From a virus, in IMG/VR virus record IMGVR_UViG_3300025151_000138, positions 1 through 34,953 of that record: a stretch of DNA of 34,953 bases; one strand, given 5' to 3'. Shown one piece after another: positions 6,901-24,115 of this stretch. The first letter of the stretch is position 1; every line of letters starts with the position of its first letter. The position numbers and the translations under genes were made by a program. The notes below the pieces were generated by a model. The model did no database searches. It was given only the letters and a program-made list of their open reading frames with translations, and was not told the DNA's origin.

Positions 6901-7043
6901 TAGCAATGCTTGGTAATGGTTCTTCTAATGCAGGATCAGATCAGTTAGATAATTTTATTAAGGGTGTACGTCAAGAATCTTTTGGGACACAAAAGCAACA
7001 AAGAGAACTTAATGCACAACAAGGTTTAAGAGGGTTAGTATAA
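3927..7043 (+). CDS. Large virion protein with transglycosylase-like and LysM domains
   Basis: 1038 aa. In order: two related short modules at 32-57 and 95-120 sharing G-x-L-x-x-NP-x-(T/S)-G-(L/I)-P; a Gly/Ala-rich hydrophobic zipper at about 128-190; GG-L-V-A-L-Q-E-GG at 404-413 and 510-519 and a variant at 619-628; Gln-rich stretches at 520-600; a lysozyme-like segment at about 655-800 with the putative catalytic Glu675 in QIESSGG followed by ARGDFQWL; a LysM domain at 882-926 (YEVQSGDTLSAIA to ITVP); and a C-terminal module with LLSRDEYVIPADVVAMLGNGS at about 979-999. It is likely a virion-associated peptidoglycan-degrading protein used at DNA entry. LysM is firm, transglycosylase probable, role inferred. 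The stop overlaps the next start. Confidence 0.78.
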   Translation: MNYINPDAPAAGLTRLLNMRDNNPAMQLAYMPTKDIAAMGRMGGLEFNPYSGIPQARGVAAVAEGGSIDKAPLSPMADELASRGRYGDTMLLHVRPDELQGLASLGTLTINPDTGLPEAFNFKSLLPAVGAIAGSILLGPAFGAVVGPAFGVGIGAGLGSFAGGLAAGQKPGQAALGGLISGATAGFMQGLTPGLEQTPGTGIDPLVTAPAGESVGNIYPSGSVNLGEAGVFGGGREAIKDITARTLPFESIVDTAAFNALPESTIAYGTQLGQPSFQTISGKAVKEGLFTPALPATGITPQQAIDAGAIIPDMTVAQRASQVLTSPTTYVGAGLSTMLTPPPAPEFEEPEPLELGSSSYVPRKRTLVGGQPREPETTAEILARMTGGGDAQPLASQFRYISEGGLVALQEGGQAKQFIDQPKLTQMSITPESQRVRNDTSQPQQNISNRFFDELESKGGIMAIMSRLLLRNNPEAIQFVNQNASIPNSSSGGLTSFDTADRGLYTKYSGGLVALQEGGTPEQGVLQSQQTPVLQQQEQQISERARQDELLQRDQAMSRGQQFIEQPTGNQQLFQQMQNVGQVIGQQVAQGPESYATPSGQSAAPSSFVSGTSFGFNTGGLVGLAEGGVVSLKRGGEPDQIENVLPVTLQSTMKRLGIKDATPFLEFAQKTKQIESSGGVNRINPNSSARGDFQWLTKVNPKAKKGVHGSVKTAVNRTIASYKRMGQDIPQWLKTLDKNSTKSTKDLEANVLSLTPDQELELFFGNIGEAVDSDKYLTEIAKGNKQAMFEAYSDIHHTRGQKDKSTKDRAIKTFFSGMPELDIDNPVPTTKDMYDDKPFSSVYSGMPAVQKETQMAKLADTENDAGILSILKNILSGEDKQYEVQSGDTLSAIAKQQGMSLDELLEANKNISNPNVIRQGQEITVPDQSSFLDRVRGALGYAQGGDIGQYFEGQVVGNGDGMSDQILFEVEGNNPDKALLSRDEYVIPADVVAMLGNGSSNAGSDQLDNFIKGVRQESFGTQKQQRELNAQQGLRGLV

Positions 7044-7702
7044 TGGGCGGATCAATAGGTACACCTGTAGCACCTACAACACCAGCACCTACAACACCAG
7101 CACCTACAACACCATCAACTCCACAGTTGGTAAATCGTGGTGCAGGTGTGTCTACACTACCAGTGTCACCAACAGGTCCAACAGGTTCAACAGGTCCAAC
7201 AGGTCTTCCAAGTGTATCTAATAAAGGTGGTGGTTCTGCTACTTTACCCTCTCCTACATTTGCTAGTGATCCAGTAGTAGCACAACCGTTACCACCTGTA
7301 CCACAGTTTCAATCAACAGCAGGTTTGTTTTCACCACTATTTTCACAACCTGCACCACCTATTATACAACAAGGTAATAAGGGTGGTGGTAGAACTGTTT
7401 CTCCCTCTACAGGTTTAACAAGTATACCTTTAGAACCATATGGTAGTTCTACTAATTCAACAGGAACTAGAGATGTAACAGATGTAACTGAATTATCAAG
7501 AACTACTTTTGATCCTGCATTAACTGCACGTGATACATTAGATAGAATAGAACTAATGGAGAAAAGATTTGCAGACCAAGATGCGGCAGAAGCAGCGGCA
7601 GCAGCTAGTGCACCTACTGCAGCAGAAAGACGGGCAGAAGAAGACAGACTATTTGCAGAGAGACAAAGAAGATTTCAGGAGCATCAAGCAATAGGTCATT
7701 AA
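7043..7702 (+). CDS. Pro/Thr-rich repetitive protein, probably virion-associated
   Basis: 219 aa, starting on a TAATG overlap and preceded by AGAGGG. The N-terminus holds three APTTP repeats. A short collagen-like run of G-P-T-G-S-T-G-P-T-G triplets follows at about 45-54. Three N-(K/R)-G-x-G-x-x-T-x-P/S blocks start near residues 31, 60 and 112. The C-terminal third (about 155-215) is an Ala/Glu/Arg-rich helix, probably a coiled coil. The composition suggests a disordered linker or spike followed by an oligomerisation helix. I know no family for it. Its place between two internal-virion-type genes suggests a structural role. Confidence 0.6.
   Translation: MGGSIGTPVAPTTPAPTTPAPTTPSTPQLVNRGAGVSTLPVSPTGPTGSTGPTGLPSVSNKGGGSATLPSPTFASDPVVAQPLPPVPQFQSTAGLFSPLFSQPAPPIIQQGNKGGGRTVSPSTGLTSIPLEPYGSSTNSTGTRDVTDVTELSRTTFDPALTARDTLDRIELMEKRFADQDAAEAAAAASAPTAAERRAEEDRLFAERQRRFQEHQAIGH
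7070..7114 (+). repeat. Three perfect 15-bp tandem repeats encoding APTTP
   Basis: The 15-bp unit GCACCTACAACACCA occurs three times head to tail without mismatch at 7070-7084, 7085-7099 and 7100-7114, within the N-terminal coding region of the Pro/Thr-rich gene. Perfect conservation including third positions points to recent slippage or duplication, so copy number may vary between related phages. Confidence 0.9.
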
Positions 7703-7720
7703 TAACAACAATAATAAAGA

Positions 7721-8152
7721 ATGAAACTAATAAGAATTGAACAAAACTGTGTAGAAGTTACTTGGCCTTATGTAAAGCATTTTATTAAAAAACCTGTAGA
7801 CAGGAGCATGAATGAAAGAGATATAGATGATGTTTACCTTTCTCTTCTCCACAATCAAATGCAGCTATGGGTTTTGGCAAGTGAAGAAGAAGGAATACTA
7901 GGAGCATGTATCACACAGTTGATACAGTATCCAAAATATAAAGCATTGTCTTTACCACTGGTAGGAACTAAGCCACATACAATAAGCAAGTGGTACGAGT
8001 ACACAATGGACAATAATTCTCCACTAATGCAGTGGGGTAAAGAGCAAGGAGCAGTAAGACTTGAGTGTTATGTCAGGGATGGCTGGCTAAAGTACACTAA
8101 GAAGTTTAACTTTAAAAAGTATTATACTACGATTGTAAAGGAAATTGAGTGA
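7721..8152 (+). CDS. GNAT-like phage protein
   Basis: 143 aa. The central QLWVLASEEEGILGACITQLIQYP and C-terminal GAVRLECYVRDGWLKYTKKFNFKKYYT follow the beta-strand/helix order of GNAT acyltransferase folds, including the terminal R-x-G-W-x-K-x-x-x-x-F-x-F segment. Such proteins sit among virion-assembly genes in many podophages, comparable in place to T7 gp13. The classical acetyl-CoA loop (R/Q-x-x-G-x-G/A) is not obvious, so it may not be an active enzyme. Its stop overlaps the next ATG (TGATG). The preceding ribosome-binding site is poor (AATAAAGA). Confidence 0.6.
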   Translation: MKLIRIEQNCVEVTWPYVKHFIKKPVDRSMNERDIDDVYLSLLHNQMQLWVLASEEEGILGACITQLIQYPKYKALSLPLVGTKPHTISKWYEYTMDNNSPLMQWGKEQGAVRLECYVRDGWLKYTKKFNFKKYYTTIVKEIE

Positions 8153-10273: not shown

Positions 10274-13200
10274 ATGTCTGAAGAACAACAGGTAGGAACA
10301 ACATACGAGGGACTATTACAGAATCAAGATATCATTGATTCTATGTACTATTCTCTTGAGTCGTTGGGTGAACCAGTTGCTTATGGTGATAATAAATTAA
10401 TACTAGATACTTTTCTAACAAAGAAAAGATACTTTGATACTAATTTATTATCTACTATAGGTGTTGCTTCTGATGTGGAAGATATGGATGATGTTGGTCG
10501 TCAACTTCTTGCACGGTCAATGAATGCTGTTGATCAGTTACCTAACTTTGGAGAAGGGTCTGCACCAAAAGGGGCAGCAATTGCAGACTATTTTCTAGCA
10601 GGTGTGAGTGATCCTACCAATTTAGCTTCTGCTATTGCAGGTGCATTTACTCTTGGTGCTGGTGGTGCTGCAGGATTAGCAGCAAAAGAAGCTGCAAAGT
10701 TGGGTGTAAGACAAGCACTAAAAGCTAAGATTAAAAACTTTGCATCACCTGCCGTTTTAAAAAGTCTAGCTGTAGAAGGTACAGTTGCAGGTGCGGGTGG
10801 TGCATATCAAGGTTATGAACGACAAAGTGTAGAGAAGGACATTGGTCTACGTAAAGAGATTGATCCTACCACTGTTGCATTACAAGGTATATTAGAAGGT
10901 ACAATCAGTCCTGTTGCGGGTGTAGCAGCTAGTATGTTAGGAACTGTAGCAGCTAAACCATTTAAGTCTGGCTTTGAGATGGCAAGGACTGTTGTCCCTG
11001 AAGTTGAAAGAGCAGCTTCATGGATGGAACGTAATCTTCTACCTACCGCAGGTGTGTCTGAAGTTCAGCGTAGACTTATTGAACGTAATGCAGGACAAGC
11101 ATCTTCACTTAAAGATCAAGCAGATAAACTTACAGAACAGTTTAATAGTATATTATCCAAAACAAAAGAAGATCAACCTCTTTTCAGTAAACAAGAAATA
11201 GAAGGTGAGAATAGTTTAATTAATAAAGCATTGCAAGGTGATGCAGCTTCTATTAGAGAAGTAACCGCAAGAGATGCAGAAGCAGGTAGAATTATAAATG
11301 ACTTTTTTGATCTACGAGAAGAAGCATTTAAGTATGGCAGAGATGCTGCATTAAATAAACAAACAAAAGGAATTTTTGATAAAGATTCTAACTACGTTCG
11401 TAGTGTTCCTGAAGCATATGCAGTAAACAAAAGAACACAAAACTTTGATGAATTTATAAAAGAAAATCCAACTATTCTTACAGAATTAAAATCTGCTATG
11501 GCAGCAGACCCAACAAATGTAAGGTGGGAAAAGTACACTAAAGAATATATCACAACTGATGGACGTATAATTAGTGATGCAGCTGAGAATGAATTTGTTT
11601 TACAAGCAGCTAAAAATTTATACCAACCATCACGTAGTATGCGAAAAGAAACAGGTGCATTTGAAAAGAAGTTAGATCAAAATGCACTTCCTAATGTTGT
11701 AAGAAAAATACTTGGATATAATAATCGTCCTGCTTTGCGTATAACAGAAACAATCAACGGTATTGTAGATACAGCAGCAAGAGCAAACACTGCTAGAGAT
11801 ATTGTTAATGATGCGCTAAATAGAGGTGCTGCTGTTGCAGCTAAAAGTCCAGCAGAAGCAAGAGAAATATTTAGGCAGAAGTTTCCTGATCAAGATATAA
11901 CTGATGTTATGTCTGTTACTGGCACGGTTAAACCTGCTAAGTATCAAGGTAGTGAGATTGAAGAGACGGTTATGAATGTACCGTTTCAACGCATAGATGA
12001 AAAATTAAAAAATATCTACATAACAAAAGATGAAGGCGTAAGATTAAAAGAACTATTTGATACAAATTTCTTTGGTCATCAAGCTGCAGAAAAAGATAAC
12101 CTAATTGGTGCAGCTATGCGTTCTTTCTTAGGCACACAGGCTTTTGCTAAGGCAGGTAAGACAGTCTATAGTCCTATAGCTATGATTCGTAATGCTATAG
12201 GCGCTGCAGGTTATGCTGCATCTAGTGGTAACACTAAAGGATTGATTGACGGTGGTAGATACATAGGTAATCTACTAAAGAAAGGTGGTACAAATAATCC
12301 TGAGTTAAGAACAGCTATACGAGAGTTTCAGGATTTAGGTTTACAAGGATCAAACATTGATCTTAATCAAACTTTAAGACGATTTGGTGATGTTACCGAT
12401 AGAATGGATGATGGTAATATCATGCAAAAGTTTATGGTTAGTGGTGGTCTTAGCACATTTGGTAAACCGGGTAAGGCAGTTGCTAAAGCAGCAAGAGAAT
12501 CATACGGTGCTATTGATGATGCTGCTAAATTTGCAGTGTTTATGAATGAAAGACAACAAGCTAAAAAAGTATTTGATTCTTTTTCTCCTGAGATACAGCA
12601 AAGAAAACTAGCAGAGTTTCAACAGCAGTATAGCGTAATAAATCCTACACGTGAAGACTATATCAACGAGCAAGCTGCAATTAAGACAGGTAATGTAACA
12701 CCACTATATGGTCGTATTCCTCCGTTGTTAGAAAAGATGCGAGCATTTCCTATCATTGGTTCATTTACTGCCTATCCTGCAGAACGTCTTCGCAACGTAT
12801 ATCAAATTCTTAAAACTGGAACTGACGAAATGGTTGAAGGTTTTGAGACAGGTAATGCAGCGTTACGTAACCAAGGCATTAAAAGACTTGCTTCTTTATA
12901 TGCAATGCAGGGTGCGATATATACAGGTGCATATGGTATTAACGCTGCTCTTGGAGAGAACGAAACAGTAGACAAGATGAGAGCAAGTCTACCTGACTGG
13001 CAGAAAAACTCTGCACTGATTGTAACAGGTAGAACAAAAGATGGTATGCCTACATATGTAGATGTTAGTTATCTAAATCCTGATCAATATGTTATTGGAG
13101 GTATTGTACCTCTTATGATGAAAGCATCACGTGGTGAAGATGTAAGTAAAGATTTAGATGAGTCTATTGTTCAAGCAGGAAAGAAACTATTTGAACCTTA

Positions 13201-14005
13201 TGTGTCTCCTTCTCTTGCACTAGAAGCAGCTATGGATTTAGGTAATGTAGTTACGGGTAAATCAACTGACGTTGCCAGAGACTTAGCCTCTATGGGTAAA
13301 GCATTAGAACCGGGATACACTAAGTTTGTGCGAGACATGGCACAGGATGCAGAGGCATTTGAGAAGTTTGGTACTCCCGGTTCAGATGTAGAACGGTTCT
13401 TCTATCCTCAAAGGTTTGGTACAGTAGATGAACCTGCTGAAGGATTTATTGATTTACTGCAAAAGAATGGTTTAGGTTTTCCCGGCTTGAGAGAGGAAGT
13501 ATTTAATCCCAAGAGAGTTATGGGATATACTCTTAATACAATTAATTCTAATGCACGGCAGAACTTTAATAGCTTTGCAGGTAAACTTGCTGACATGCTT
13601 GCCGATCCTAGATCAAGGTATGACTATGAAGAAGTTATGAAAGAATATAATGAAGTTCTTCAAGAGCAGTTTACTGCACAACAGGCTATTCGTAAACTGT
13701 TTCAAGACATGGACGGAATAATAGGTAAACAAGAATTAATAAAAAATCTAAACTCATATGATCTACGTGGTGTAGTACCATCTAAAAAGGTTATACGTGG
13801 TATTTTAAATGGTCGTGCTGCACCTACTACAAAAGCAGACAAAAGGCAATTCTGGTTGGATATAAATAGAAATTTATATGAGAAAACTGGTGAGTACTAC
13901 ACTCAAGAAATAGCAGATTTAAGACGCAACATGGCTAAATTAGAAAGGTTCTATCGTGGTGCTGATTTACGTGGTGATCCACCAGATATAAAGATAGGAG
14001 AATAA
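10274..14005 (+). CDS. Large internal virion (DNA ejection) protein
   Basis: 1243 aa, the largest gene here. It has an acidic N-terminus (MSEEQQVGTTYEGLL), Gly/Ala-rich hydrophobic stretches at about 105-140 and 205-225 that could insert into membrane, and long helical regions. Near the middle is KAGKTVYSPIAMIRNAIGAAGY, and later a TKDGMPTYVDVSYLNPDQY segment. Size, amphipathic glycine-rich segments and position at the end of the virion operon resemble the giant internal core proteins of podophages (T7 gp16 or equivalents), which extend the tail through the envelope. I see no N-terminal lytic transglycosylase motif; that activity seems to sit in the 1038-aa protein. No strong Shine-Dalgarno is present. 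Confidence 0.7.
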   Translation: MSEEQQVGTTYEGLLQNQDIIDSMYYSLESLGEPVAYGDNKLILDTFLTKKRYFDTNLLSTIGVASDVEDMDDVGRQLLARSMNAVDQLPNFGEGSAPKGAAIADYFLAGVSDPTNLASAIAGAFTLGAGGAAGLAAKEAAKLGVRQALKAKIKNFASPAVLKSLAVEGTVAGAGGAYQGYERQSVEKDIGLRKEIDPTTVALQGILEGTISPVAGVAASMLGTVAAKPFKSGFEMARTVVPEVERAASWMERNLLPTAGVSEVQRRLIERNAGQASSLKDQADKLTEQFNSILSKTKEDQPLFSKQEIEGENSLINKALQGDAASIREVTARDAEAGRIINDFFDLREEAFKYGRDAALNKQTKGIFDKDSNYVRSVPEAYAVNKRTQNFDEFIKENPTILTELKSAMAADPTNVRWEKYTKEYITTDGRIISDAAENEFVLQAAKNLYQPSRSMRKETGAFEKKLDQNALPNVVRKILGYNNRPALRITETINGIVDTAARANTARDIVNDALNRGAAVAAKSPAEAREIFRQKFPDQDITDVMSVTGTVKPAKYQGSEIEETVMNVPFQRIDEKLKNIYITKDEGVRLKELFDTNFFGHQAAEKDNLIGAAMRSFLGTQAFAKAGKTVYSPIAMIRNAIGAAGYAASSGNTKGLIDGGRYIGNLLKKGGTNNPELRTAIREFQDLGLQGSNIDLNQTLRRFGDVTDRMDDGNIMQKFMVSGGLSTFGKPGKAVAKAARESYGAIDDAAKFAVFMNERQQAKKVFDSFSPEIQQRKLAEFQQQYSVINPTREDYINEQAAIKTGNVTPLYGRIPPLLEKMRAFPIIGSFTAYPAERLRNVYQILKTGTDEMVEGFETGNAALRNQGIKRLASLYAMQGAIYTGAYGINAALGENETVDKMRASLPDWQKNSALIVTGRTKDGMPTYVDVSYLNPDQYVIGGIVPLMMKASRGEDVSKDLDESIVQAGKKLFEPYVSPSLALEAAMDLGNVVTGKSTDVARDLASMGKALEPGYTKFVRDMAQDAEAFEKFGTPGSDVERFFYPQRFGTVDEPAEGFIDLLQKNGLGFPGLREEVFNPKRVMGYTLNTINSNARQNFNSFAGKLADMLADPRSRYDYEEVMKEYNEVLQEQFTAQQAIRKLFQDMDGIIGKQELIKNLNSYDLRGVVPSKKVIRGILNGRAAPTTKADKRQFWLDINRNLYEKTGEYYTQEIADLRRNMAKLERFYRGADLRGDPPDIKIGE

Positions 14006-14802: not shown

Positions 14803-15194
14803 TGCAGATGGACGCACAGTTTTTGTTTCAGGTGGGAGCAGTAGTTGCTTCTCTGTCTGGCGCATGGGCATTGGTGCGTGCACAAGTAAATACCTTGAAG
14901 GCAACTCAAGAAGAAATTAAAAATAATGTTGATGAATTAAATAGAGAACTTGATGAAGCAGAGAATAATGTAGCTGTACTAAGACAGCAGATAAAAGTAT
15001 TGTCTGATATTCTTAGTCCAGATAATCTTGCTGCTGAACACAAAAGAAAAGGTCAAGTTCATGAACAAATTAAAAAATTACAAGAAGAAGTTTCAAGTTT
15101 GCAACACATGCATAATGGTCGTCATCCCTTTATAGATGAACTATCTAGCAGTCATCATGCTCCTCGTCCTCAGAAAACCAAGAACAATTCATAA
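14802..15194 (+). CDS. Membrane-anchored coiled-coil protein at end of virion operon
   Basis: 130 aa. Residues about 8-26 (FLFQVGAVVASLSGAWALV) form one transmembrane segment, followed by a heptad-like coiled coil (30-65), a linker, a second helix and a His/Pro/Lys-rich tail. This N-in, single-pass, coiled-coil layout resembles inner-membrane spanins and some holin-associated proteins. A better i-spanin candidate lies on the other strand at 15682-15903, so the role is open. The start overlaps the previous stop. The last 50 bases overlap the small terminase gene on the opposite strand, tail to tail. Confidence 0.65.
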   Translation: MQMDAQFLFQVGAVVASLSGAWALVRAQVNTLKATQEEIKNNVDELNRELDEAENNVAVLRQQIKVLSDILSPDNLAAEHKRKGQVHEQIKKLQEEVSSLQHMHNGRHPFIDELSSSHHAPRPQKTKNNS

Positions 15195-15582
15195 ATATTT
15201 TAGATGTTCTTTCTTCACCTAATATCTCTAAGCTATTAACTATCTCTTGTTCTAATTCAGCGATAGACTTAACAGCTTCTTCTTCCTTTGTAGAACGAAT
15301 GCGGGACAGTACCTCTAGTGCCTTAATTGCACTGTTGGTATGTCCTGCACTCTTAGCATAATTGTACTGGTTTTCTACCTCTGCAATAACATCAATGCGT
15401 GTCTCAAGTTCCTTTTCAAGTTCTTCAATACGCTCGTTAATCTCAGGTCGTTGCTTTAACCTGTGACCTTGTGTATGTGCAGACGTATCAGAATACCCTG
15501 CAGCTTTAGCAGCTTCAGTAGCATTACGATACATTACATAGGCTTGACAGAACTTCTCTTGCTTTAGATTAAGTTCCTTCAT
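15145..15582 (-). CDS. terS: Terminase small subunit
   Basis: 145 aa. The N-terminus L-N-L-K-Q-E-K-F-C-Q-A-Y followed by NATEAAKAAGYS and a later RPEINERIEELEKE is the classic small-terminase pattern (Terminase_2 type): a HTH DNA-recognition domain at about 5-50, then an oligomerisation helix and an acidic C-terminus. It would recognise viral DNA and load the large subunit. No large terminase is in the window. It is the last gene of the minus arm, starting on an ATGA overlap with the o-spanin gene. Its 3' end overlaps the converging plus-strand gene by 50 bp. Confidence 0.85.
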   Translation of the reverse strand: MKELNLKQEKFCQAYVMYRNATEAAKAAGYSDTSAHTQGHRLKQRPEINERIEELEKELETRIDVIAEVENQYNYAKSAGHTNSAIKALEVLSRIRSTKEEEAVKSIAELEQEIVNSLEILGEERTSKIFMNCSWFSEDEEHDDC

Positions 15583-16156: not shown

Positions 16157-18454
16157 TTAAGCTGCCTGTTTAGTAATTAGATTAGTGTAGTAAACTTTGT
16201 CTGCTTGCTTTGAAGTTTTATATACTTCTGATACAAGCGTATTGTCTCCATGCATACACACATTCATTTCTATATCTTCGTTATCAAATAACTTTTCACA
16301 GTCCTGTGCCATTGCAAGAAGTTCACCAGTAGTCCAAAACTCTGAACCATTTGTTTCTACCTTCATGTACTTCATTCTACCATCTTCTAGTTTTTCTTCT
16401 AGATCAATCTCTGTTTCATCAGGGAATGAACAGTCAAAACCAAACAGATGAAAGTTTCTAAAGCCAAAGATATGCATCATTCCTATTGCTCTCATAGCTG
16501 CACAAGTACCACCATTAACAAACGTAGTATTTTCAGGTATATTTAAGCTCTCATTAATCTTTAGGCTTTGACCTTCTTGATTCTTAACTGTGTTTGCTAC
16601 TGCCTGTGAATAAGCGTGCCAACCATATACCTGATCAGTCTTTGACTTTAGTAGTTCTGTAACTGAAGGATCAGTCATAGATGCAATGAAGAACATTGTA
16701 CTAGGATCAACCTTATCAAATAAGGTAGATCGTACAACACCATGAGTACTCTCACCTTCAATGGGTCGAGGGTCTAGTATAACACATGCCCATGGCTTTA
16801 TGCCAGCCTTTAGTAACTTAGGATAGCTGTGCTTCACACAGACAATTCGTGCATTTGTTTTCTTTTGCAGCTTCTTCACTTGCTTAAAGTCAGTAGATGA
16901 TCCACCAGATACAATGATTGCATGTTCGTCATGCACATGACAGTTTCGGATCATGTCCCATCTATCAATAAGCTCTACGTTTCTGTTGATGTTGTCAACA
17001 ATATTGTCCTTTGGCACAGAGTCACGTGGTTGGACAATAATAGGAACACGCCTCAATTCTGCAGGTATGTCATCAAGACTGTCATCATTAAGTAGAACAG
17101 CAAGATGTGTATGTCCACCACCTTTTACCCTATCTTGAGAAGGAAGAACAGTTATACGTTTGTCTTTGAGAGATTCAACCAATCTATTCGTACCAAGATA
17201 TTCATCACCAAGAATATTACCGTCCTTATCTTTGGAAAAGAAATCATCAAAGACAACAACAGGTGCATGTTTTAGGTAACTGTAATCAGATTGTACAGTT
17301 TCTTCACTGTGTCCACCATCAATGTAAGCAAATGAAACATCTTTTAAATTATCTTTTGCTTTATTCAATGTTTCTTTTGAGTCACCTTTAAATAACTCAA
17401 AGGTAAATGTCTTGTCCTTTTCTGCCATCTTTGTGGCAAACTCTGTAAGACGTTTTGTTACAGCCTCTAAAGTGTTGTGTGCTTTAGAGTTTAGCTCTAC
17501 CTTATCTAACTCTTCAGTAGCTTCTTCAAATAAATCAAAGCCAGTGTAATGTACCTTGTCACTCTTCTCAAATGCAGCAAGAGACATTTCAATAGCACGC
17601 CCACCATTCCACGTACCAACTTCTACAATGCTATCCTTTGCGTACTCACGTACAAGATCAGCAAGCTGACGATAGCGTGGTAGATTAACATCAGGTGCTA
17701 CAGTATCTTTAGATAACTTTTTCTTGAGGTTGCCTTTGTAGTGTACCATGTATTCAGACAAGGGAGAATTAGCAAATGCAGCAAGACCGTCTACATTTGG
17801 AGTTAGGTTATGTGCTTTCAATCCATGTGCAAGATAAATTTTAAGTAGACGTTCAAAGATAAAACCATCATGCCATTCACGATATGATATTACTTCTCCT
17901 ATATCGTAGCAACCACGCAAATCTGCCAACAGATAATGCGGAGACTGATAATCAAGATTGAAAGCAATAAAAGAAGTTTCACTATAGTCAACATCTTTCC
18001 TGCCTAAGTAAACCAACTCTGCCTTTTCAGGAACAATGGTATCTAAATTTTTCTGAGAGAAAGGCTTAGTAGTTATTGTATCAGCATCCAACCAAATAAG
18101 CCAGCCACCCTTTGCTTCTTTATCTCCTATCTCTAAAGATAGATCAGTCATAGCATATACTTTATGTGACCACTTAATAGCATCCATGCGCCAGTTATAC
18201 TGCATCTGACCACCTTCAGTACCATCATGGTCTTTCATACGCTCACGATAATCAAGCATATCTTGAACATCATTTAGATTACGATACTCAATAACTTCTG
18301 ACTGTGGAAACTCTGCTACTAATTCTTCAGGACAGTCATGGTAGTAAGCAATCAACTTTAGATCGTTCTTCCAAAACTTTGCTACAGACTCTAGCATATT
18401 TTTAGCATAGCTTATATAACCACTATCACTAAATGATGTTACAAACTTAGTCAT
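16157..18454 (-). CDS. Three-domain fusion: glycosyltransferase, SAM methyltransferase, DUF115/MptE-like
   Basis: 765 aa from the ATG at 18454; a GTG at 18463 lies closer to the GGGAG site and cannot be excluded. Numbered from the GTG: residues 1-250 are a glycosyltransferase-like domain with WLDAD at 124-128. Residues 255-460 are a class I SAM methyltransferase of the Methyltransf_24 type, with EVGTWNGG at 281-288, AYIDGGHSEETVQSDY at 379-394 and VVFDDFF at 403-409. Residues 500-750 are a DUF115/MptE-like domain (AIIVSGGSS at 515-523, GIKPWACVILDPRP at 554-567, HLFGFDCS at 672-679), as found in Maf flagellin glycosyltransferases. All expected motifs are present. It may build or transfer a methylated sugar onto a virion, cell-surface or DNA target; the substrate is unknown. 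It overlaps the upstream glycosyltransferase gene. Confidence 0.8.
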   Translation of the reverse strand: MTKFVTSFSDSGYISYAKNMLESVAKFWKNDLKLIAYYHDCPEELVAEFPQSEVIEYRNLNDVQDMLDYRERMKDHDGTEGGQMQYNWRMDAIKWSHKVYAMTDLSLEIGDKEAKGGWLIWLDADTITTKPFSQKNLDTIVPEKAELVYLGRKDVDYSETSFIAFNLDYQSPHYLLADLRGCYDIGEVISYREWHDGFIFERLLKIYLAHGLKAHNLTPNVDGLAAFANSPLSEYMVHYKGNLKKKLSKDTVAPDVNLPRYRQLADLVREYAKDSIVEVGTWNGGRAIEMSLAAFEKSDKVHYTGFDLFEEATEELDKVELNSKAHNTLEAVTKRLTEFATKMAEKDKTFTFELFKGDSKETLNKAKDNLKDVSFAYIDGGHSEETVQSDYSYLKHAPVVVFDDFFSKDKDGNILGDEYLGTNRLVESLKDKRITVLPSQDRVKGGGHTHLAVLLNDDSLDDIPAELRRVPIIVQPRDSVPKDNIVDNINRNVELIDRWDMIRNCHVHDEHAIIVSGGSSTDFKQVKKLQKKTNARIVCVKHSYPKLLKAGIKPWACVILDPRPIEGESTHGVVRSTLFDKVDPSTMFFIASMTDPSVTELLKSKTDQVYGWHAYSQAVANTVKNQEGQSLKINESLNIPENTTFVNGGTCAAMRAIGMMHIFGFRNFHLFGFDCSFPDETEIDLEEKLEDGRMKYMKVETNGSEFWTTGELLAMAQDCEKLFDNEDIEMNVCMHGDNTLVSEVYKTSKQADKVYYTNLITKQAA

Positions 18455-19184
18455 ATTGTTCACTCATCTCCCTATATAATTCATTCCATTCTTTTGCATA
18501 TTGATTATCAATATCTCTTTTACCTTCCCAGTTTCTAAATAGTGGTCCACCTGTTGTGAAGTGTACACACTTAGGATCAATATCTTCAGATGAATGACCA
18601 TCAAGCCAGTTCCATTCTTCAGTTATCTGACCTATTGATTCTGCCCAATGCATACCATGTAACCAACCTCCGCTACTAGTGTTCACATCAGATACAGTTA
18701 GTTCATTTAATTCTGGATTGCCACAGTTAAATAACATAAAGCTTGACCAGTTCTTTCTAAAGTAAGTCTGCTGTAATTTATTATCCATTTTATATTTGTC
18801 ATTAGGTTGGTACTTATGATGTACACAAGCTACAGAAAAATCTCTATAAGCGAAGAGGTTAAATAGTTTATTTATATCATCTCTCATATACATATCACAG
18901 TCCATAAATAAGGCATGTCCTTGATGTACATTTAGAAAGGGTACAAGAAAACGTGTGAAACTAAACTCAGTAGAAAAAGGTTTACCGTCAAATGAATCTA
19001 CCTGCTGACCATCCTTTATAATCTTTGTTCGCCAGTATAAACCTGTTCGCCTTACACTGTCCTGTTTTAGTCTAACAATATTTACAGGTGAGGATGAATA
19101 TTTATTTATGCTGTATTCAAGAACATCACAGTAAACTTTTTCTTTAGGATCGTAACCAATGTATATTGTGGGAAGACTACTCAT
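18447..19184 (-). CDS. Glycosyltransferase (GT8-like fold)
   Basis: 245 aa from the ATG at 19184, chosen for the strong GAGGAAG site just upstream; a TTG at 19202 opens the longer frame. It begins IYIGYDPKEKVYCDVLEYSI, typical of GT-A glycosyltransferases related to family 8. The metal-binding DxD motif is M-D-C-D-M at 94-98, preceded by FTRFLVPFL. Later residues WLHGMHWAE, WNWLDGH and CVHFTTGGP fit the acceptor and C-terminal regions. Likely transfers a sugar from a nucleotide donor in the cytoplasm. It is followed by the glycosyltransferase-methyltransferase-DUF115 fusion, whose start it overlaps, so the two probably act on one product. Confidence 0.75.
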   Translation of the reverse strand: MSSLPTIYIGYDPKEKVYCDVLEYSINKYSSSPVNIVRLKQDSVRRTGLYWRTKIIKDGQQVDSFDGKPFSTEFSFTRFLVPFLNVHQGHALFMDCDMYMRDDINKLFNLFAYRDFSVACVHHKYQPNDKYKMDNKLQQTYFRKNWSSFMLFNCGNPELNELTVSDVNTSSGGWLHGMHWAESIGQITEEWNWLDGHSSEDIDPKCVHFTTGGPLFRNWEGKRDIDNQYAKEWNELYREMSEQYD

Positions 19185-19413
19185 CAGCAGCTTCCTCTGC
19201 AATCTTTTCTGTAAGTTCTTTAAAGGTAATAAACTCTGAGGGTATCATAAAATATTCTAGTGTTATTAACATAGCATTCTTTAGCTCATCTTCAATTAGA
19301 TCACTACTAAGATCATCTAATATAACTGTCTTTAATATTTCTACAACAAGATTATCACAGGTGGTAGTTGTTAAATCTACTTTAATTGTTGGTTCAGTGT
19401 CTAAAAAACTCAT
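19177..19413 (-). CDS. Small acidic hypothetical protein
   Basis: 78 aa with a good AAAGGA site five bases before the ATG. Acidic and largely helical, rich in Glu, Leu, Ile and Thr, ending EKIAEEAADE; no membrane segment or cysteine motif. It starts just downstream of the heat-shock gene's terminator and overlaps the glycosyltransferase start by eight bases, so it is co-translated with that gene. I do not recognise a family. Confidence 0.6.
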   Translation of the reverse strand: MSFLDTEPTIKVDLTTTTCDNLVVEILKTVILDDLSSDLIEDELKNAMLITLEYFMIPSEFITFKELTEKIAEEAADE

Positions 19414-19472: not shown

Positions 19473-19889
19473 CTACTTTATAACAATTAATTTAGGTTGC
19501 TCTTCTTCTGGAACAACTTCTTCCAATGTAATAGTAAGAAGACCATCACGTAAGTTTGCGTCTCTTACTTCCATAGCATCAGATAAAGAAAATGATTTAC
19601 GGAACTTACGTGCCGCAATACCTGTCACAATATAGTTTCTATTATCATCGCCATCTCTATCACCAACAATAGTAAGAATATTATCCTTTAATTCAATAGT
19701 TATATTTTCTTTTGAGTAACCAGCAACAGCAAGTGTTACCTTATAAAAATTATCTTCCTTCTCTAGATCATGAGGTGGAAACGCACCAACATTGCTTGGT
19801 ACACGTTTAAATAAATCTTCAAAAGTACATCCCAACATGTAGTCTGGAAGTGTCTTTGAATTGGCGTTAATGTAATCAATAAAGTTCAT
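19473..19889 (-). CDS. hsp20: Small heat-shock protein (Hsp20/IbpA family)
   Basis: 138 aa from the ATG at 19889, chosen for the GAGGAG site upstream; a longer frame to 19946 has no such support. The alpha-crystallin domain (about 38-128) shows the IbpA pattern: Y-K-V-T-L-A-V-A-G-Y-x-K-E-N-I, then GIAARKFRKSFSL, and the signature A-N-L-R-D-G-L-L-T-I-T-L. The C-terminus P-K-L-I-V-I-K carries the I-x-I-type oligomer contact. An ATP-independent holdase that likely protects virion or replication proteins; related genes are known in marine phages. It has its own sigma70-like promoter and intrinsic terminator, making it a one-gene cassette within the minus arm. Confidence 0.9.
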   Translation of the reverse strand: MNFIDYINANSKTLPDYMLGCTFEDLFKRVPSNVGAFPPHDLEKEDNFYKVTLAVAGYSKENITIELKDNILTIVGDRDGDDNRNYIVTGIAARKFRKSFSLSDAMEVRDANLRDGLLTITLEEVVPEEEQPKLIVIK

Positions 19890-19946
19890 TGTTGTCTCCT
19901 CGTTAAGCAAGTTAATTAAGTACACCACTATGGTCGTACCATGCAT

Positions 19947-19975
19947 ATACTACTACAGTATACAATCGTTGTCAA
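19947..19975 (-). promoter_or_regulatory. Sigma70-like promoter for the heat-shock cassette
   Basis: On the minus strand a perfect -35 TTGACA (19975-19970) is separated by exactly 17 bp from TAGTAT (19952-19947), a 4/6 match to the -10 consensus. It lies in the 94-bp gap between the oxygenase stop and the heat-shock ATG, one of the few real intergenic spaces in this arm. The start site would be near 19940. TATATG at a 20-bp spacing is a poorer alternative -10. Confidence 0.65.
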
Positions 19976-19983
19976 GAAAAAAG

Positions 19984-20550
19984 TTAAGTAAACCTTTCTC
20001 CTCTAAACCAACAGACAAGAGAGCATCGTTCTCCTTCTTTCACTTTTGTAACACGGTGGAAGATAAAGGAAGGAAAGACAGCAATGCTACCTGTCCTTCT
20101 CATATCTTTAAGAGTAGCAAACCTATCTCCTGCTTGAGGGTGCACCCACTTCTGTACCTGAAGATCACCACCCTTAAACTCACTGTTCAGTGAAACACAT
20201 ACTGTTAGCTTTCTTGTATAAGGATCGGAAGGAAGTTCTACACCAGCATCCATGTGCCAGTCGTAGAACTGTCCCTTACCATAGAAGGATACCTGTGGAC
20301 TTTCAAAACAATTCATGTGAAAGTTCCAACCTGCTTCCTTGTTAGCTGTCTCTGCGTACAGTTGTAGAATGGAAGTAAGTTCAGGATTTTCTAGCCAAGC
20401 AATCCTGCTATTCCTTACTTCTTCAAGACGGACATTGTCACCACTTTCATATACGTCAGCTTCCTGGCTGTCTATTTCTTTAGCAATATTTAGAAAGCCA
20501 TCACATAGTTCTTTAGGTATAACTTCTTTATACGTATGGTATGTAAGCAT
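19984..20550 (-). CDS. 2-oxoglutarate/Fe(II)-dependent oxygenase
   Basis: 188 aa from the ATG of the TAATG overlap with the RNR stop. It has the prolyl-4-hydroxylase-type core: the iron ligands H99-x-D101 in DWHMDAG, the distal H165 in FIFHRV, and R175 ten residues later for 2-oxoglutarate. GG-D-L and the G-S-I-A-V-F-P-S strand fit the double-stranded beta-helix fold. It would hydroxylate a substrate with O2 and 2-oxoglutarate. Phage members are common and their targets (proteins, DNA bases, sugars) are mostly unknown. It lies between RNR and the heat-shock and glycosyltransferase genes. All catalytic residues are present. Confidence 0.85.
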   Translation of the reverse strand: MLTYHTYKEVIPKELCDGFLNIAKEIDSQEADVYESGDNVRLEEVRNSRIAWLENPELTSILQLYAETANKEAGWNFHMNCFESPQVSFYGKGQFYDWHMDAGVELPSDPYTRKLTVCVSLNSEFKGGDLQVQKWVHPQAGDRFATLKDMRRTGSIAVFPSFIFHRVTKVKEGERCSLVCWFRGERFT

Positions 20551-22235
20551 TAAACTCCACAACTCCCACCATGTCCAGTAATATCACAAATGTCATGTGT
20601 CTCAAGACCTTCTTCAAACTCTTCACCTAACTTATCAACAGCTTCGCTGTAAGGAACAGACGTTAGTGGTTGCCCACCACGGCATGAATCAGGGTATACA
20701 GTAAAGCCACGTAACCTATGTGCGTAAGAAGCAAGAGTGTTAGTAAAGTCCATAACAGTGTCTTCATTGTTCAACTTGCTTCCCCATGTTGGTAGGTTGA
20801 TTGTCGAAGAGATTGACATATCAACGTAGTCCTGAACGTCTGCTTGAAATTTCATACGCCTCTTATAATCTTCTGCAAGATCAAGAGCAGACTCAATCTC
20901 ATTAGGATCAGTACCATACAGATCAATAAGTTCCTGTGCTGCACTGTCTACTACGTATTGATAATGCCAACGTGTACCACCTTTTAAATACCTCCTCTTG
21001 TACGCTACAGCGAAGATAGGTTCTACACCTGTACTAGTACCTGCAAGAATACCAATGCTTCCTGTTGGTGCAATAGCACGGTTAGCTACTGGTCTGCTGC
21101 AGTTAAACTCATCAGCAGTCTTCTTTGAAACTTCATCACTAACACCTTTGTATACACCTAACCACTTATGTAACTCAGGTGTTACCTCATACTTAGAACC
21201 ACGCTTGATCAACCACTCATGCATACCCATCAAACCAAGACCTAATCTACGGTTCTTGATGCGAACATCATATACCTTTTCATATGGTAGCTTTGCTTTT
21301 AATGTACCACAGATAAGAAACTTAGTTGCAAGTTCAACTATATCTTTAAACTCTTGAAGATTATCAACTCTTCCAAGGTTGATTGATCCTAGATTACATA
21401 CGTCCGAATCATCCGCTGAACAAACTTCCGTACAAGCATTGCGAAGTGTTTCATTTTCTTTATCAAAGAAGTTAAAACTAAATCCCGGTTCTGCTGTTTG
21501 CAACGCTTGTCGTACATTCTGTTTAAAAGTAGACCCAACATCACCTGTCTCCCAGTAGTTTAATAACCATTCAGTATCGTAGTTTACACTGATATTTGTC
21601 ATGTCTAGTGGTGCAATGAAGTTAAAGTCTTGTTCTTTAATCTGACCAATAGAAAACTCTGTATTACCAACTGGCATATCGTACCAGTTCTTACTGGTAA
21701 GAAACTTTTCTATGTCAGAATGTTTCCAATTAAGGCTGGCATAAATAGCAGATCGTCTGCTACCACCCTGCATAACTCGTCTACCAATCTCATTGATCAT
21801 CATCATCTTTGGTATAGGACCAGATGCAAGACCACCAGTACCAGACAGCACTCTACCTTCTTCACGATACACAGAGTAATCAACACCAATACCACCACCT
21901 GTCATCAGGCATGACTCTGCCTTCCATGAAAGGTTTGCCCAGTCTTCACGTGTATCTTCTTCTGCACGTAGAAGGTAGCAGTTGTTGAAAAATTTATTTG
22001 TGCGACCAGCGTAGTACAAATACCTGCCACCGGGAATAAATTTTAGATCAGTAATGTATTCCTTTAGCTGCTCTTTTTCGTCTTCCTTCAGATAAGGACT
22101 ACATACATCATCAACAAGAACTGAAGCTAGGCTTGACCATGTTTCACAACCATGATGTGCATACTTATGTTTGAAGATATCTTCACTAAACTTGGAACGG
22201 AACATTGGATTTTCATTGGATCGAAATGTAGGCAT
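20550..22235 (-). CDS. nrdJ: Ribonucleotide reductase, class II (adenosylcobalamin-dependent) type
   Basis: 561 aa. It makes deoxynucleotides from ribonucleotides. Visible features: redox cysteines C86 (FNNCYLL) and C280 (VCNLGSINL), the catalytic N-x-C-x-E at 266-270, RRSAIYASLNW at 160-169, RNR core motifs RPVANRAIAPTGSIGILAGTS and a GLMGMHEW segment, and a C-terminal cysteine pair C550/C559. It is a single polypeptide with no NrdB partner nearby and too short for a class I NrdA, so a B12-dependent class II enzyme is the best call. A class II enzyme would need cobalamin from the host. The gene is preceded by GGAGAA and coupled to the oxygenase. Confidence 0.85.
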   Translation of the reverse strand: MPTFRSNENPMFRSKFSEDIFKHKYAHHGCETWSSLASVLVDDVCSPYLKEDEKEQLKEYITDLKFIPGGRYLYYAGRTNKFFNNCYLLRAEEDTREDWANLSWKAESCLMTGGGIGVDYSVYREEGRVLSGTGGLASGPIPKMMMINEIGRRVMQGGSRRSAIYASLNWKHSDIEKFLTSKNWYDMPVGNTEFSIGQIKEQDFNFIAPLDMTNISVNYDTEWLLNYWETGDVGSTFKQNVRQALQTAEPGFSFNFFDKENETLRNACTEVCSADDSDVCNLGSINLGRVDNLQEFKDIVELATKFLICGTLKAKLPYEKVYDVRIKNRRLGLGLMGMHEWLIKRGSKYEVTPELHKWLGVYKGVSDEVSKKTADEFNCSRPVANRAIAPTGSIGILAGTSTGVEPIFAVAYKRRYLKGGTRWHYQYVVDSAAQELIDLYGTDPNEIESALDLAEDYKRRMKFQADVQDYVDMSISSTINLPTWGSKLNNEDTVMDFTNTLASYAHRLRGFTVYPDSCRGGQPLTSVPYSEAVDKLGEEFEEGLETHDICDITGHGGSCGV

Positions 22236-22240
22236 TTATT

Positions 22241-22555
22241 CTATTCTCCCTTGGTTACATGATCGTGGACATAAAGCATGATTATCGCATAGTGAATAAT
22301 CTTTAGCAAGTCCTTCCTGTTCTTCCCTTCCTTGTTACCATATCTCTTCCAGTATTTTAATATGTTACCCATAACAAAACCTTCACCATGCCCACTGTCA
22401 AGGATGATATCTGTGGCTTGATATTTACCTTTTGCATAATGTTCTTTATATGTAGATGAAATGTACTCATGCATCTCATCTATATAGTCTCCTTCGTCAA
22501 ACTTAAAACTTGGTAAACTAGAATACATCTTAACAATCTCTGTGTCTCTATCCAT
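22241..22555 (-). CDS. DUF3310-like protein
   Basis: 104 aa from the ATG at 22555, which follows AGGAGA; the longer frame to 22669 overlaps the next gene and has no such site. The C-terminal half contains G-F-V-M-G-N-I-L-K-Y-W-K-R-Y-G-N-K-E-G, then R-K-D-L-L-K-I-I-H-Y. This corresponds to the G-N-x-x-K-Y-x-x-R...K...E/D-D-L-x-K-x-x-x-Y core of DUF3310 (SaV-like) proteins found in many phages. The function is not established; nucleotide-related roles have been proposed for the family. It lies in the nucleotide and recombination gene block. Confidence 0.7.
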   Translation of the reverse strand: MDRDTEIVKMYSSLPSFKFDEGDYIDEMHEYISSTYKEHYAKGKYQATDIILDSGHGEGFVMGNILKYWKRYGNKEGKNRKDLLKIIHYAIIMLYVHDHVTKGE

Positions 22556-22565
22556 TTGTTTTCTC

Positions 22566-22910
22566 CTAGTCGAATGTAAGGACGGCATTGATACGCCTAC
22601 GAACATATTTAATCTCCTTAGATTTAAGAACCTTGAATGCAAAGCTACGAACATAGTCTGCATCCACACCTGCTATATCACAGACAGTACTAAAATCTTC
22701 AGCAGTAACACCTACAGAGGCAAAGAACCATGCCTTTGCAGAATCACGTGCTGTCTTAGACTCTACTGATTCTCTATTGTTTTCTGGTTTGGTAGCATCA
22801 AGCATTGCCTGTAAGACAACACCAAGAAACATTATCTGTTCAGGACTTGTTGTTTTGTTTTCTACGAGACTTTCTACTTCTACCAGAAACTTTTCTGTTC
22901 CTTCTCTCAT
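22566..22910 (-). CDS. Conserved phage protein, possibly DNA-binding
   Basis: 114 aa, all helical. The C-terminal half has A-K-A-W-F-F-A, D-F-S-T-V-C-D-I-A-G-V-D-A-D-Y-V-R-S-F and a basic K-Y-V-R-R-R. The A-x-x-WF...DF-x-x-VC-x-x-A-G-x-D-x-x-x-V-R pattern is widespread in small phage proteins and looks like a helix-turn-helix. No enzyme motif. It overlaps the 3' end of the endonuclease I gene by 71 bp in another frame, so its start could be further in; an internal ATG (MFLGV) is available. Confidence 0.6.
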   Translation of the reverse strand: MREGTEKFLVEVESLVENKTTSPEQIMFLGVVLQAMLDATKPENNRESVESKTARDSAKAWFFASVGVTAEDFSTVCDIAGVDADYVRSFAFKVLKSKEIKYVRRRINAVLTFD

Positions 22911-23280
22911 CTAGCCAACTGTCAGGAATACCATCAGAGAGTTTACAAAACATAAAGTCGTTCTTGTTACACCAGTCTGCATAGGTAGTCTTTGCTCCTT
23001 TGTTTAATTTCTTGTTAGGGTTATCGAATACAAATCTTACATCCAAGTCAGGATTAGACTGCCTAAGAAAAAGATGTTTCTTTCTATCGTCAAGAGTAAA
23101 CCTACCCTTCACTTCTAATATAATACCAGAAGGAAGAATAAAGTCAGGTAGATATTTTTTAGATTCAATCCACATGTACGGAATGTAGTGTGGTTCAAAC
23201 TCAAAGTCAATATTTAAATCTATCAGATAGTCTGCTGCTCTACGTTCAGAGCGTGATCTAAACTTGTAGTTCTGGGACAT
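22840..23280 (-). CDS. T7 endonuclease I-like Holliday junction resolvase
   Basis: 146 aa from the ATG at 23280. It shows the Phage_endo_I pattern: K-F-R-S-R-S-E (E12), F-E-F-E-P-H-Y-I-P-Y, Y-L-P-D-F-I-L-P-S-G-I-I-L-E-V-K (D46, E56, K58), D-L-D-V-R-F-V-F and K-G-A-K-T-T-Y-A-D-W. These align with the catalytic E20, D55, E65 and K67 of the T7 enzyme. It resolves branched replication and recombination intermediates and helps degrade host DNA. An unusual strongly basic tail (R/K/S/N-rich, last ~20 residues) lies over the start of the next gene and may be a by-product of the overlap. Confidence 0.9.
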   Translation of the reverse strand: MSQNYKFRSRSERRAADYLIDLNIDFEFEPHYIPYMWIESKKYLPDFILPSGIILEVKGRFTLDDRKKHLFLRQSNPDLDVRFVFDNPNKKLNKGAKTTYADWCNKNDFMFCKLSDGIPDSWLDERRNRKVSGRSRKSRRKQNNKS

Positions 23281-24115
23281 TCGGTTCACGATCTACATTA
23301 GTTAAATACTTTACACTGTTTGCGTACTGGAATGCACGTAATCCCTTACCATTGTTAGCATCCGACCAACAATCAAACTTATAAGGGCAATAGTTACAAC
23401 CAGTAGCCAACTGCATATTCCCAGACTTACCGTCAGGAACATCATCATAACAACGAGAAGGTGGTTCACTATCTTTGATAGCATCTCTAAGATAGTCAAT
23501 CTTTTGTGAAGCATTTATCATCTCCATTTGATGTACTGGACAATAAGCTATCTGACCTGTTGTCTTGTCAATAACAACCCATCCAGCTTCCTTGGCATTG
23601 TTAGCTTGAGCATACGCAGATAACTGTGCAACATAACCAAAAGGATCATCTTTGAATACCATACCCTCAGTAAACTTCTTGAAAGAAAATGACGATGCAC
23701 TTTTAAAGTCAACAAGAACATCATCAACCACTGCATCCTGATGACCAACAACATCATTTAGTACTACCTGTTTCTGTTGATCAGATACTTTATGACCAGC
23801 AGCTTTGGAAAGAAAGACAAGAAGTGCTTCAAGGATATCCCCATACAGGAACTTGATATAATCAGACCCAGCTAATTCTTCCTGTTCAGTTGATCTGACA
23901 GAGTACCATACTTTTCTTGCTGGTTGACCAATCATTGATAGCCTTAAATTATTTCTTGGCTTTCTTTCCTCAGTAAGAGCATTGACAACAGCATCAGCAA
24001 CATCCTTGGCAAGTTCCTGCAGAGCAGTAGCAGGAATCTTTGTAGGTTCATTACTGGTGAACAGACTGTAAATGTCTTCTACCAAAGTATCAATTGTTTT
24101 CTGTGCTGTTGTCAT
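23258..24115 (-). CDS. Cas4/RecB-like PD-(D/E)XK exonuclease with cysteine cluster
   Basis: 285 aa. Motifs: Y-G-D-I-L-E (E96), G-H-Q-D-A-V-V (D127), V-L-V-D-F-K-S-A-S (D136, K138) and Y-V-A-Q-L-S-A-Y-A (Q164), the order expected for RecB/Cas4-family nucleases. C222, C240, C243 and C249 (GCNYCPYKFDCW) can bind an Fe-S cluster. Likely the phage 5' exonuclease for host DNA breakdown and recombination, taking the place of T7 gp6 beside the T7-like endonuclease I. No ribosome-binding site precedes the start, which follows the HTH gene stop by five bases. It overlaps the endonuclease I gene by 23 bp. Confidence 0.85.
   Translation of the reverse strand: MTTAQKTIDTLVEDIYSLFTSNEPTKIPATALQELAKDVADAVVNALTEERKPRNNLRLSMIGQPARKVWYSVRSTEQEELAGSDYIKFLYGDILEALLVFLSKAAGHKVSDQQKQVVLNDVVGHQDAVVDDVLVDFKSASSFSFKKFTEGMVFKDDPFGYVAQLSAYAQANNAKEAGWVVIDKTTGQIAYCPVHQMEMINASQKIDYLRDAIKDSEPPSRCYDDVPDGKSGNMQLATGCNYCPYKFDCWSDANNGKGLRAFQYANSVKYLTNVDREPNVPELQV

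Follow-up and report, generated by a model that had tools for sequence, protein, structure and literature searches.

A single phage protein combining a GT6-like glycosyltransferase, a methyltransferase exchanged as a cassette, and a Maf-like DUF115 domain

The fused gene and its relatives

The window analysed here, that is, the whole stretch of 34,953 bases, is an entire IMG/VR virus record from an uncultured aquatic phage. Its minus strand carries an open reading frame (ORF) for a 765-aa protein in which a glycosyltransferase (GT), a methyltransferase (MT) and a DUF115 domain follow one another (Table 1). The frame runs from an ATG at 18454 to a stop at 16157-16159 with no internal stops, and the plus strand of the same interval is crowded with them. 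A sequence-only reading of this DNA had placed three domains in a single chain of this length, which our analysis bears out with the strand added; the enzyme classes that it gave to the three domains were correct, and the motifs that it quoted were all found (WLDADT at residues 121-126, EVGTWNGG at 278-285, AYIDGGHSEE at 376-385, AIIVSGGSS at 512-520 and LFGFDCS at 670-676).

Relatives of the protein are encoded in 299-304 IMG/VR stretches in each of three overlapping scans, the best 80 of which were analysed per scan, with overlap between the lists. One intact GT-MT-DUF115 ORF is present in 178 of 216 loci, a number that includes refetched stretches of identical contigs, and no frame error was found. 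With about 300 stretches per scan encoding relatives and this many intact copies, the fusion protein is not an artefact. One further locus of the 216 was scored as a fusion whose DUF115 match is split; in 28 others the ORF is GT-DUF115, mostly of about 540 aa, and lacks the MT. Removal of identical proteins from the first sets left 121 unique full-length proteins, 120 of them with the MT domain. The GT-A domain also occurs as its own gene, in the fragments L210-L214, in phage MW202713 and in Pelagibacter phage Mosig; the last two are the only matches in INPHARED, with the GT part alone. PDB sequence searches gave no significant relative, and no published description of a GT-MT-DUF115 fusion was found in the literature searched, the coverage of which was partial. 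A BREX paper returned by the DUF115 search was discarded, since the passage in question concerns DUF1156 and not DUF115.

Table 1. Position of the fused gene, its domains and motifs, and neighbouring genes in the window
Feature	Coordinates	Strand	Basis
Fused GT-MT-DUF115 protein, 765 aa	16157..18454	minus	single ORF; Pfam; intact relatives
Domain 1, residues 1-245, predicted GT-A glycosyltransferase, GT6-like fold	17720..18454	minus	Foldseek, predicted model
DxD motif D123-A124-D125	18080..18088	minus	invariant in alignment A1
Conserved motif E193-W-H-D-G197	17864..17878	minus	invariant in alignment A1
Domain 2, residues 250-460, SAM-dependent O-methyltransferase, sugar-OMT/COMT fold	17075..17707	minus	PF13578; predicted fold
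SAM motif I, E278-G285 (EVGTWNGG)	17600..17623	minus	conservation
D379 of the IDGGH motif, presumed metal/catalytic Asp	17318..17320	minus	invariant in alignment A1
D403-D404, presumed metal ligands	17243..17248	minus	ligand role by analogy with sugar-OMT relatives
Domain 3, residues 470-753, DUF115/MptE-like, Maf-like glycosyltransferase fold	16196..17047	minus	PF01973; predicted fold
SGGSS loop S516-S520, nucleotide-binding-type	16895..16909	minus	S516 and G518 invariant
G672-F-D674 of LFGFDCS	16433..16441	minus	G672 and D674 invariant in alignments A1 and A3
Partner GT8-like glycosyltransferase (phrog_28018)	18447..19202	minus	phrog_28018 E 1e-44; Glyco_transf_8 E 0.0046
Terminase small subunit, downstream of the glycan module	15145..15582	minus	phrog_51 E 1.9e-20
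Large virion structural protein phrog_22602, end of structural arm	10274..14005	plus	PHROG match

Genomic neighbourhood

The gene directly preceding the fusion is indeed GT8-like, as had been proposed, with an 8-base overlap between the two. Of 80 fetched loci, 79 were found to have a homologue of it and 67 the terminase small subunit. Fusion and GT8-like gene are both present in seven of seven long relatives compared (records of 35 to 59 kb, window included), and are therefore part of the common gene set of the group. Among isolates, the most similar polymerase (48%) belongs to Pelagibacter phage HTVC104P, which has the replication genes in common and no glycan module. In the window's lineage the module does not adjoin the head protein gene, and in the fused clade it lies on the strand opposite the structural genes, behind a ribonucleotide reductase. 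In G007, a member of the clade without MT, the GT8-like gene and the fusion stand directly behind the phrog_22602 protein, on the structural strand.

Upstream of the module, positions 19473-24115 of the window carry genes for Hsp20, a 2OG-Fe(II) oxygenase, ribonucleotide reductase, an endonuclease and a Cas4-type exonuclease. The structural operon includes a Thr/Pro-rich protein (7043-7702) with GPTGSTGPTGLP collagen-like stretches. A general coupling of prolyl hydroxylation to glycosylation was considered and rejected, because, of 20 long records, just 10 contain the oxygenase (19984-20562) and a single one the Thr/Pro-rich protein. In the L004 record an unrelated-looking ORF replaces the phrog_22602 structural protein between genes about 95% identical to the window's, likely an exchange of a virion gene.

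The three domains

The predicted model of domain 1 resembles bovine alpha-1,3-galactosyltransferase (1g93) and other GT6 chains (Foldseek, E about 3e-6), and both Asp of its DxD motif are retained in 120 of 121 unique proteins, the exception being L180. Pfam gave only a weak DUF1647 match (E 0.014) and the GT6 profile none at E up to 1, for which reason we call the domain GT6-like and do not file it as GT6: its predicted fold and DxD agree with that family, but its sequence profile does not. The GT-A assignment made earlier for this third of the protein is thus backed by the predicted fold, which is GT-A/GT6, and not by profile searches. The WHD of the EWHDG motif, retained in 121 of 121 proteins, resembles the WHD catalytic region of GT6 enzymes, by analogy of motif.

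For the middle and last thirds, the expected profile matches were both above the Pfam cut-off. Methyltransf_24 (PF13578) matches residues 277-404 (E 2.8e-8) and MptE-like (PF01973, formerly DUF115/MAF_flag10) residues 484-679 (E 5.8e-16), and both profiles match 28 of the 28 relatives in alignment A1; TylF (PF05711) matches 10 of these 28, at best with 2.2e-5. The predicted model of domain 2 matches CalS11, MycF, SpnH, NovP, COMT and TrmR (Z about 14-15), with the sugar O-methyltransferases CalS11, SpnH, MycF and NovP among the top fold matches. E278, G280 and D307 are retained in all 120 unique proteins with the MT domain, and D379 is replaced, by Gly, in L180 only. Positions 403-404 are less constant, with Asp-Asp in 103 of the 120, Asn-Asn in 15, and Asn-Gly and Asp-Asn in one each. 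By comparison with the sugar-OMT relatives, D379 and D403-D404 are presumed to bind the metal.

Domain 3 was modelled alone with a pLDDT of 86.3; like the whole-chain model, it was built on a shallow alignment (28 and 33 sequences). Its closest fold match among solved structures is the central domain of Maf, the flagellin glycosyltransferase of Magnetospirillum magneticum (5mu5; Z 19.4, rmsd 3.3, 229 residues aligned), followed by M. jannaschii HPPK/MptE (8SD5, Z 14.9), SteA (11.6), thiamin pyrophosphokinases (Z 8-9) and sialyltransferases (7.5-8.7). The link between DUF115 and Maf drawn in the sequence-only reading is therefore apt, Maf being the closest solved relative by fold. Pfam's family name and the second rank of the archaeal enzyme could suggest a pterin diphosphokinase that feeds the folate metabolism of the infected cell, but Maf lies 4.5 Z units above and the domain is fused to, and co-occurs with, glycosyltransferases, which makes such a role extremely improbable. 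Since Maf outscores MptE, the name MptE-like is not the best guide, and a glycosyltransferase role for domain 3 seems the better reading.

Domain 3 shares with Maf 5MU5 both PF01973 and the fold of the central domain. In the full-length model (pLDDT 77.8, pTM 0.44), MT and DUF115 align in order with residues 7-500 of 5MU5 (Z 19.3), with a poor inter-domain fit (rmsd 15.3). The N-terminal domain of Maf is described as a degenerate Rossmann fold with weak similarity to methyltransferases (PMC11339370), whereas the Rossmann domain of the phage fusion retains its SAM motifs. The fusion also differs in its carrier, a phage, and in the extra GT6-like domain in front. The alignment of domain 3 to 5MU5 stops at chain residue 502, and the phage protein ends about 12 residues past DUF115. 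As the C-terminal helical bundle domain is missing, domain 3 is Maf-like and the fusion protein is not filed as a Maf. The N-terminal domain of Maf, whose likeness to methyltransferases is unexplained, may have arisen from an MT-DUF115 order of this kind, although the link is weak. The same DUF115 fold is found in two proteins of uncultured Caudovirales in UniProt/BFVD, both with automatic names only: A0A6J7X5Q0 (714 aa; Methyltransferase domain containing protein; 32% identical in the DUF115 domain) and A0A6J5L5C1 (540 aa).

Exchange of the methyltransferase domain

In contrast to the nearly invariant GT DxD and DUF115 motifs, the MT domain is variable, and our results show that it is an exchanged cassette, present in diverged versions in phages otherwise about 95% identical. 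The sequence-only reading had missed this exchange, as well as the loss of the presumed metal site in some phages and the version without MT. Outside the MT domain, in the remainder of the gene and in flanks of some 6 kb upstream and 2 kb downstream, identity between the window and L004 is mostly about 95%, with single identity windows dropping to 79-89%. Across the MT domain it is only 65-76%; between L004 and L008 the pattern is reversed. L114 (Asp-Asp) and L127-L129 (Asn-Asn, from three metagenomes) repeat the MT-confined divergence independently, and L020 and L051 show a shorter exchange. L004 by itself could be a chimeric contig, but the case of L114 and L127-L129 argues against chimerism as a general explanation.

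In AU tests on groups chosen after the identities were seen, the MT data reject two placements, that of L004 in the window group (p 0.0006) and that of L114 together with L127/L129 (p 0.025). In the GT+DUF115 data, grouping L004 and the remaining Asn-Asn phages was not rejected (p 0.29); evidence for the exchange therefore comes from the MT data and the identity profiles. The altered state at 403-404 takes five changes on the MT tree and at least nine on the GT+DUF115 tree. Close pairs with a single deviating domain number six for MT (two events), two for GT (one event) and none for DUF115; the exchange is therefore not unique to MT. Median dN/dS is 0.08-0.09 in two groups of Asn-Asn alleles and 0.11 in Asp-Asp alleles. 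Both forms are under purifying selection, and the Asn-Asn alleles are thus not decaying freely.

One explanation, compatible with any target of the enzyme, is that the Asn-Asn alleles are inactive remnants shuffled by ordinary recombination that has no functional meaning. Altered presumed metal ligands in 17 of 120 unique proteins, the GT-confined exchange, and L180, which lost GT and MT residues and carries a separate methyltransferase gene, are in line with this; the dN/dS of the Asn-Asn alleles, as low as that of the Asp-Asp ones, and the retained SAM motifs speak against it, and we consider it possible but somewhat doubtful. In the Asn-Asn form, activity may be lost or altered. Tentatively, phages of a single population might use the MT domain as a recombinational methyl switch for a virion glycan, in which Asp-Asp forms methylate and Asn-Asn forms do not, or act differently, on a conserved scaffold of two glycosyltransferases, with selection for variation of the particle surface.

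Unfused modules beside virion genes

In another phage lineage, the L266 locus carries two DUF115 genes, a GT8-like, a GT6-like and an MT gene as separate adjacent genes. They are flanked by the major head protein (phrog_9953, E 2.7e-86) on one side and by phrog_20268 with the tail protein phrog_6013 on the other, and the GT6-like and MT products match the window's domain profiles with E 2.7e-21 and 4.8e-41. This locus is the strongest functional hint for the fusion. Standalone DUF115 genes have similar neighbours: in L262 the gene follows the phrog_9953 major head protein and shares an operon with portal and tail genes, and in L264, L265, L270 and L272 DUF115 precedes homologous tail genes. 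Upstream of it, L264, L265 and L272 also have a homologue of the head protein. All of the DUF115 matches in L264, L265, L266, L270 and L272 are above the PF01973 cut-off. Because these loci share one head-protein lineage, the position of standalone DUF115 counts as one genomic context, not six; the scans for it gave few loci, none of them in INPHARED. In L261 a terminase, a structural protein, a sulfotransferase and DUF115 adjoin one another.

Of the two tandem DUF115 genes of L266 (4186-5903), the first weakly matches a PHROG alpha-2,3-sialyltransferase (E 0.001). In L265 (4317-5786), a 490-aa ORF has DUF115 in its C-terminal half behind a different N-terminal part, possibly an independent fusion.

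Proposed function

Taken as a whole, the fusion is probably a phage enzyme for virion glycosylation with optional O-methylation; its target, its donors and the order of its steps are inferred. The Maf-like DUF115 domain would most likely transfer a sugar onto Ser/Thr of a virion protein, as its fold and the neighbours of its unfused relatives suggest. The GT6-like domain and its GT8-like partner would extend the glycan from host-made sugar nucleotides, and the middle domain would cap a sugar hydroxyl with a methyl group from SAM, probably with the help of a divalent metal, the fusion holding sequential steps on a single chain. Methylation would be an optional step, with MT absent in one clade and exchanged in two forms elsewhere, and the Asp-Asp/Asn-Asn exchange would make the exposed glycan end differ between phages.

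A virion protein, the host surface and DNA had been named as possible targets. The first is the best supported, because the unfused modules of the L266 type sit between head and tail genes and because the G007 module lies in the structural operon. The earlier reading connected DUF115, by way of Maf, with nonulosonic acids, which Maf transfers from CMP-NulO to flagellin. A donor of this class made by the phage is not supported: neither NeuB nor a CMP-sugar synthetase turned up in 12 long relatives, so the sugar donor would have to be host-derived or of a different class. Counting against the virion are the distance of the module from the head protein gene in the window's lineage, its opposite strand in the fused clade, and HTVC104P, which is related by its replication genes and lacks the module.

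The enzyme could instead remodel a polysaccharide or protein of the host surface during infection, for superinfection exclusion or release. Glycosyltransferases of pelagiphages have been interpreted as modifying LPS (PMC9599517), and the relative of domain 1 in phage Mosig lies in a glycan island with glycosyltransferases, methyltransferases and a sulfotransferase, a setting just as compatible with surface modification. A bacterial DUF115 gene adjoins a Wzz-type exopolysaccharide gene (L263), and the place behind the ribonucleotide reductase in the fused clade is on the replication strand. Against these stand the unfused homologues between virion genes in the other lineage and the G007 module in its structural operon; a host-surface target is the main rival to the virion, though an unlikely one. 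DNA is disfavoured. Phage DNA glycosylation exists in general, and the MT domain matches phrog_2675, labelled DNA methyltransferase (E 1.7e-7), so that glycosyltransferases and MT might hypermodify phage DNA; but no thymidylate-synthase-type base hydroxymethylase was found in the 12 long relatives, by fold the MT matches methyltransferases acting on small molecules, sugars and tRNA, and DUF115 matches a protein glycosyltransferase, which leaves this highly improbable.

For virion glycosylation by such a chain there is a counterpart in A064R of chlorovirus PBCV-1, in which two GTs are joined to a class I SAM MT and the first GT is of the retaining GT-A type with a DXD motif (PMC9614988). A064R assembles the outer portion of the major capsid glycan and methylates it, with all three domain activities demonstrated in vitro, and its mutants are antigenic variants (PMC9614988). 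The resemblance, two GTs and an MT on a single chain, is functional; domain order and families differ, and the chlorovirus infects an alga. By this analogy, A064R is the best functional precedent for the phage fusion. For mycobacteriophages Che8 and Rita, phage-encoded glycosyltransferases and glycans on the major capsid protein are reported (as cited in PMC11256854). Their capsid glycosylation is not known to involve DUF115 or a fused methyltransferase.

If virion glycosylation is correct, a widespread group of uncultured phages would use a single modular enzyme to produce a protein-linked glycan of their own, with methylation optional, and Maf-type protein glycosylation would be linked to virions. 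The cassette exchange suggests that glycan decoration differs among close phages, as in the chlorovirus antigenic variants.

Copies in cellular bins

A genome scan with GT-domain patterns found no cellular copies. A cellular origin was rejected after DUF115 patterns gave only two phage-like contigs, L180 and L181, in bins of GTDB metagenome-assembled genomes named Sneathiella and Flavobacteriaceae; bin membership does not establish the host. In L180 the fusion (4567-6909) is degenerate, with DAD of the GT changed to NTN, MT residues lost too and DUF115 intact, and a separate methyltransferase gene lies directly downstream (6869-7531). Behind the GT-DUF115 fusion of L181 stands a 304-aa gene (6827-7738) with no Pfam or PHROG match, which by eye is similar to an ORF of MW202713 (L082:4792-5613) and perhaps codes for a GT-B enzyme.
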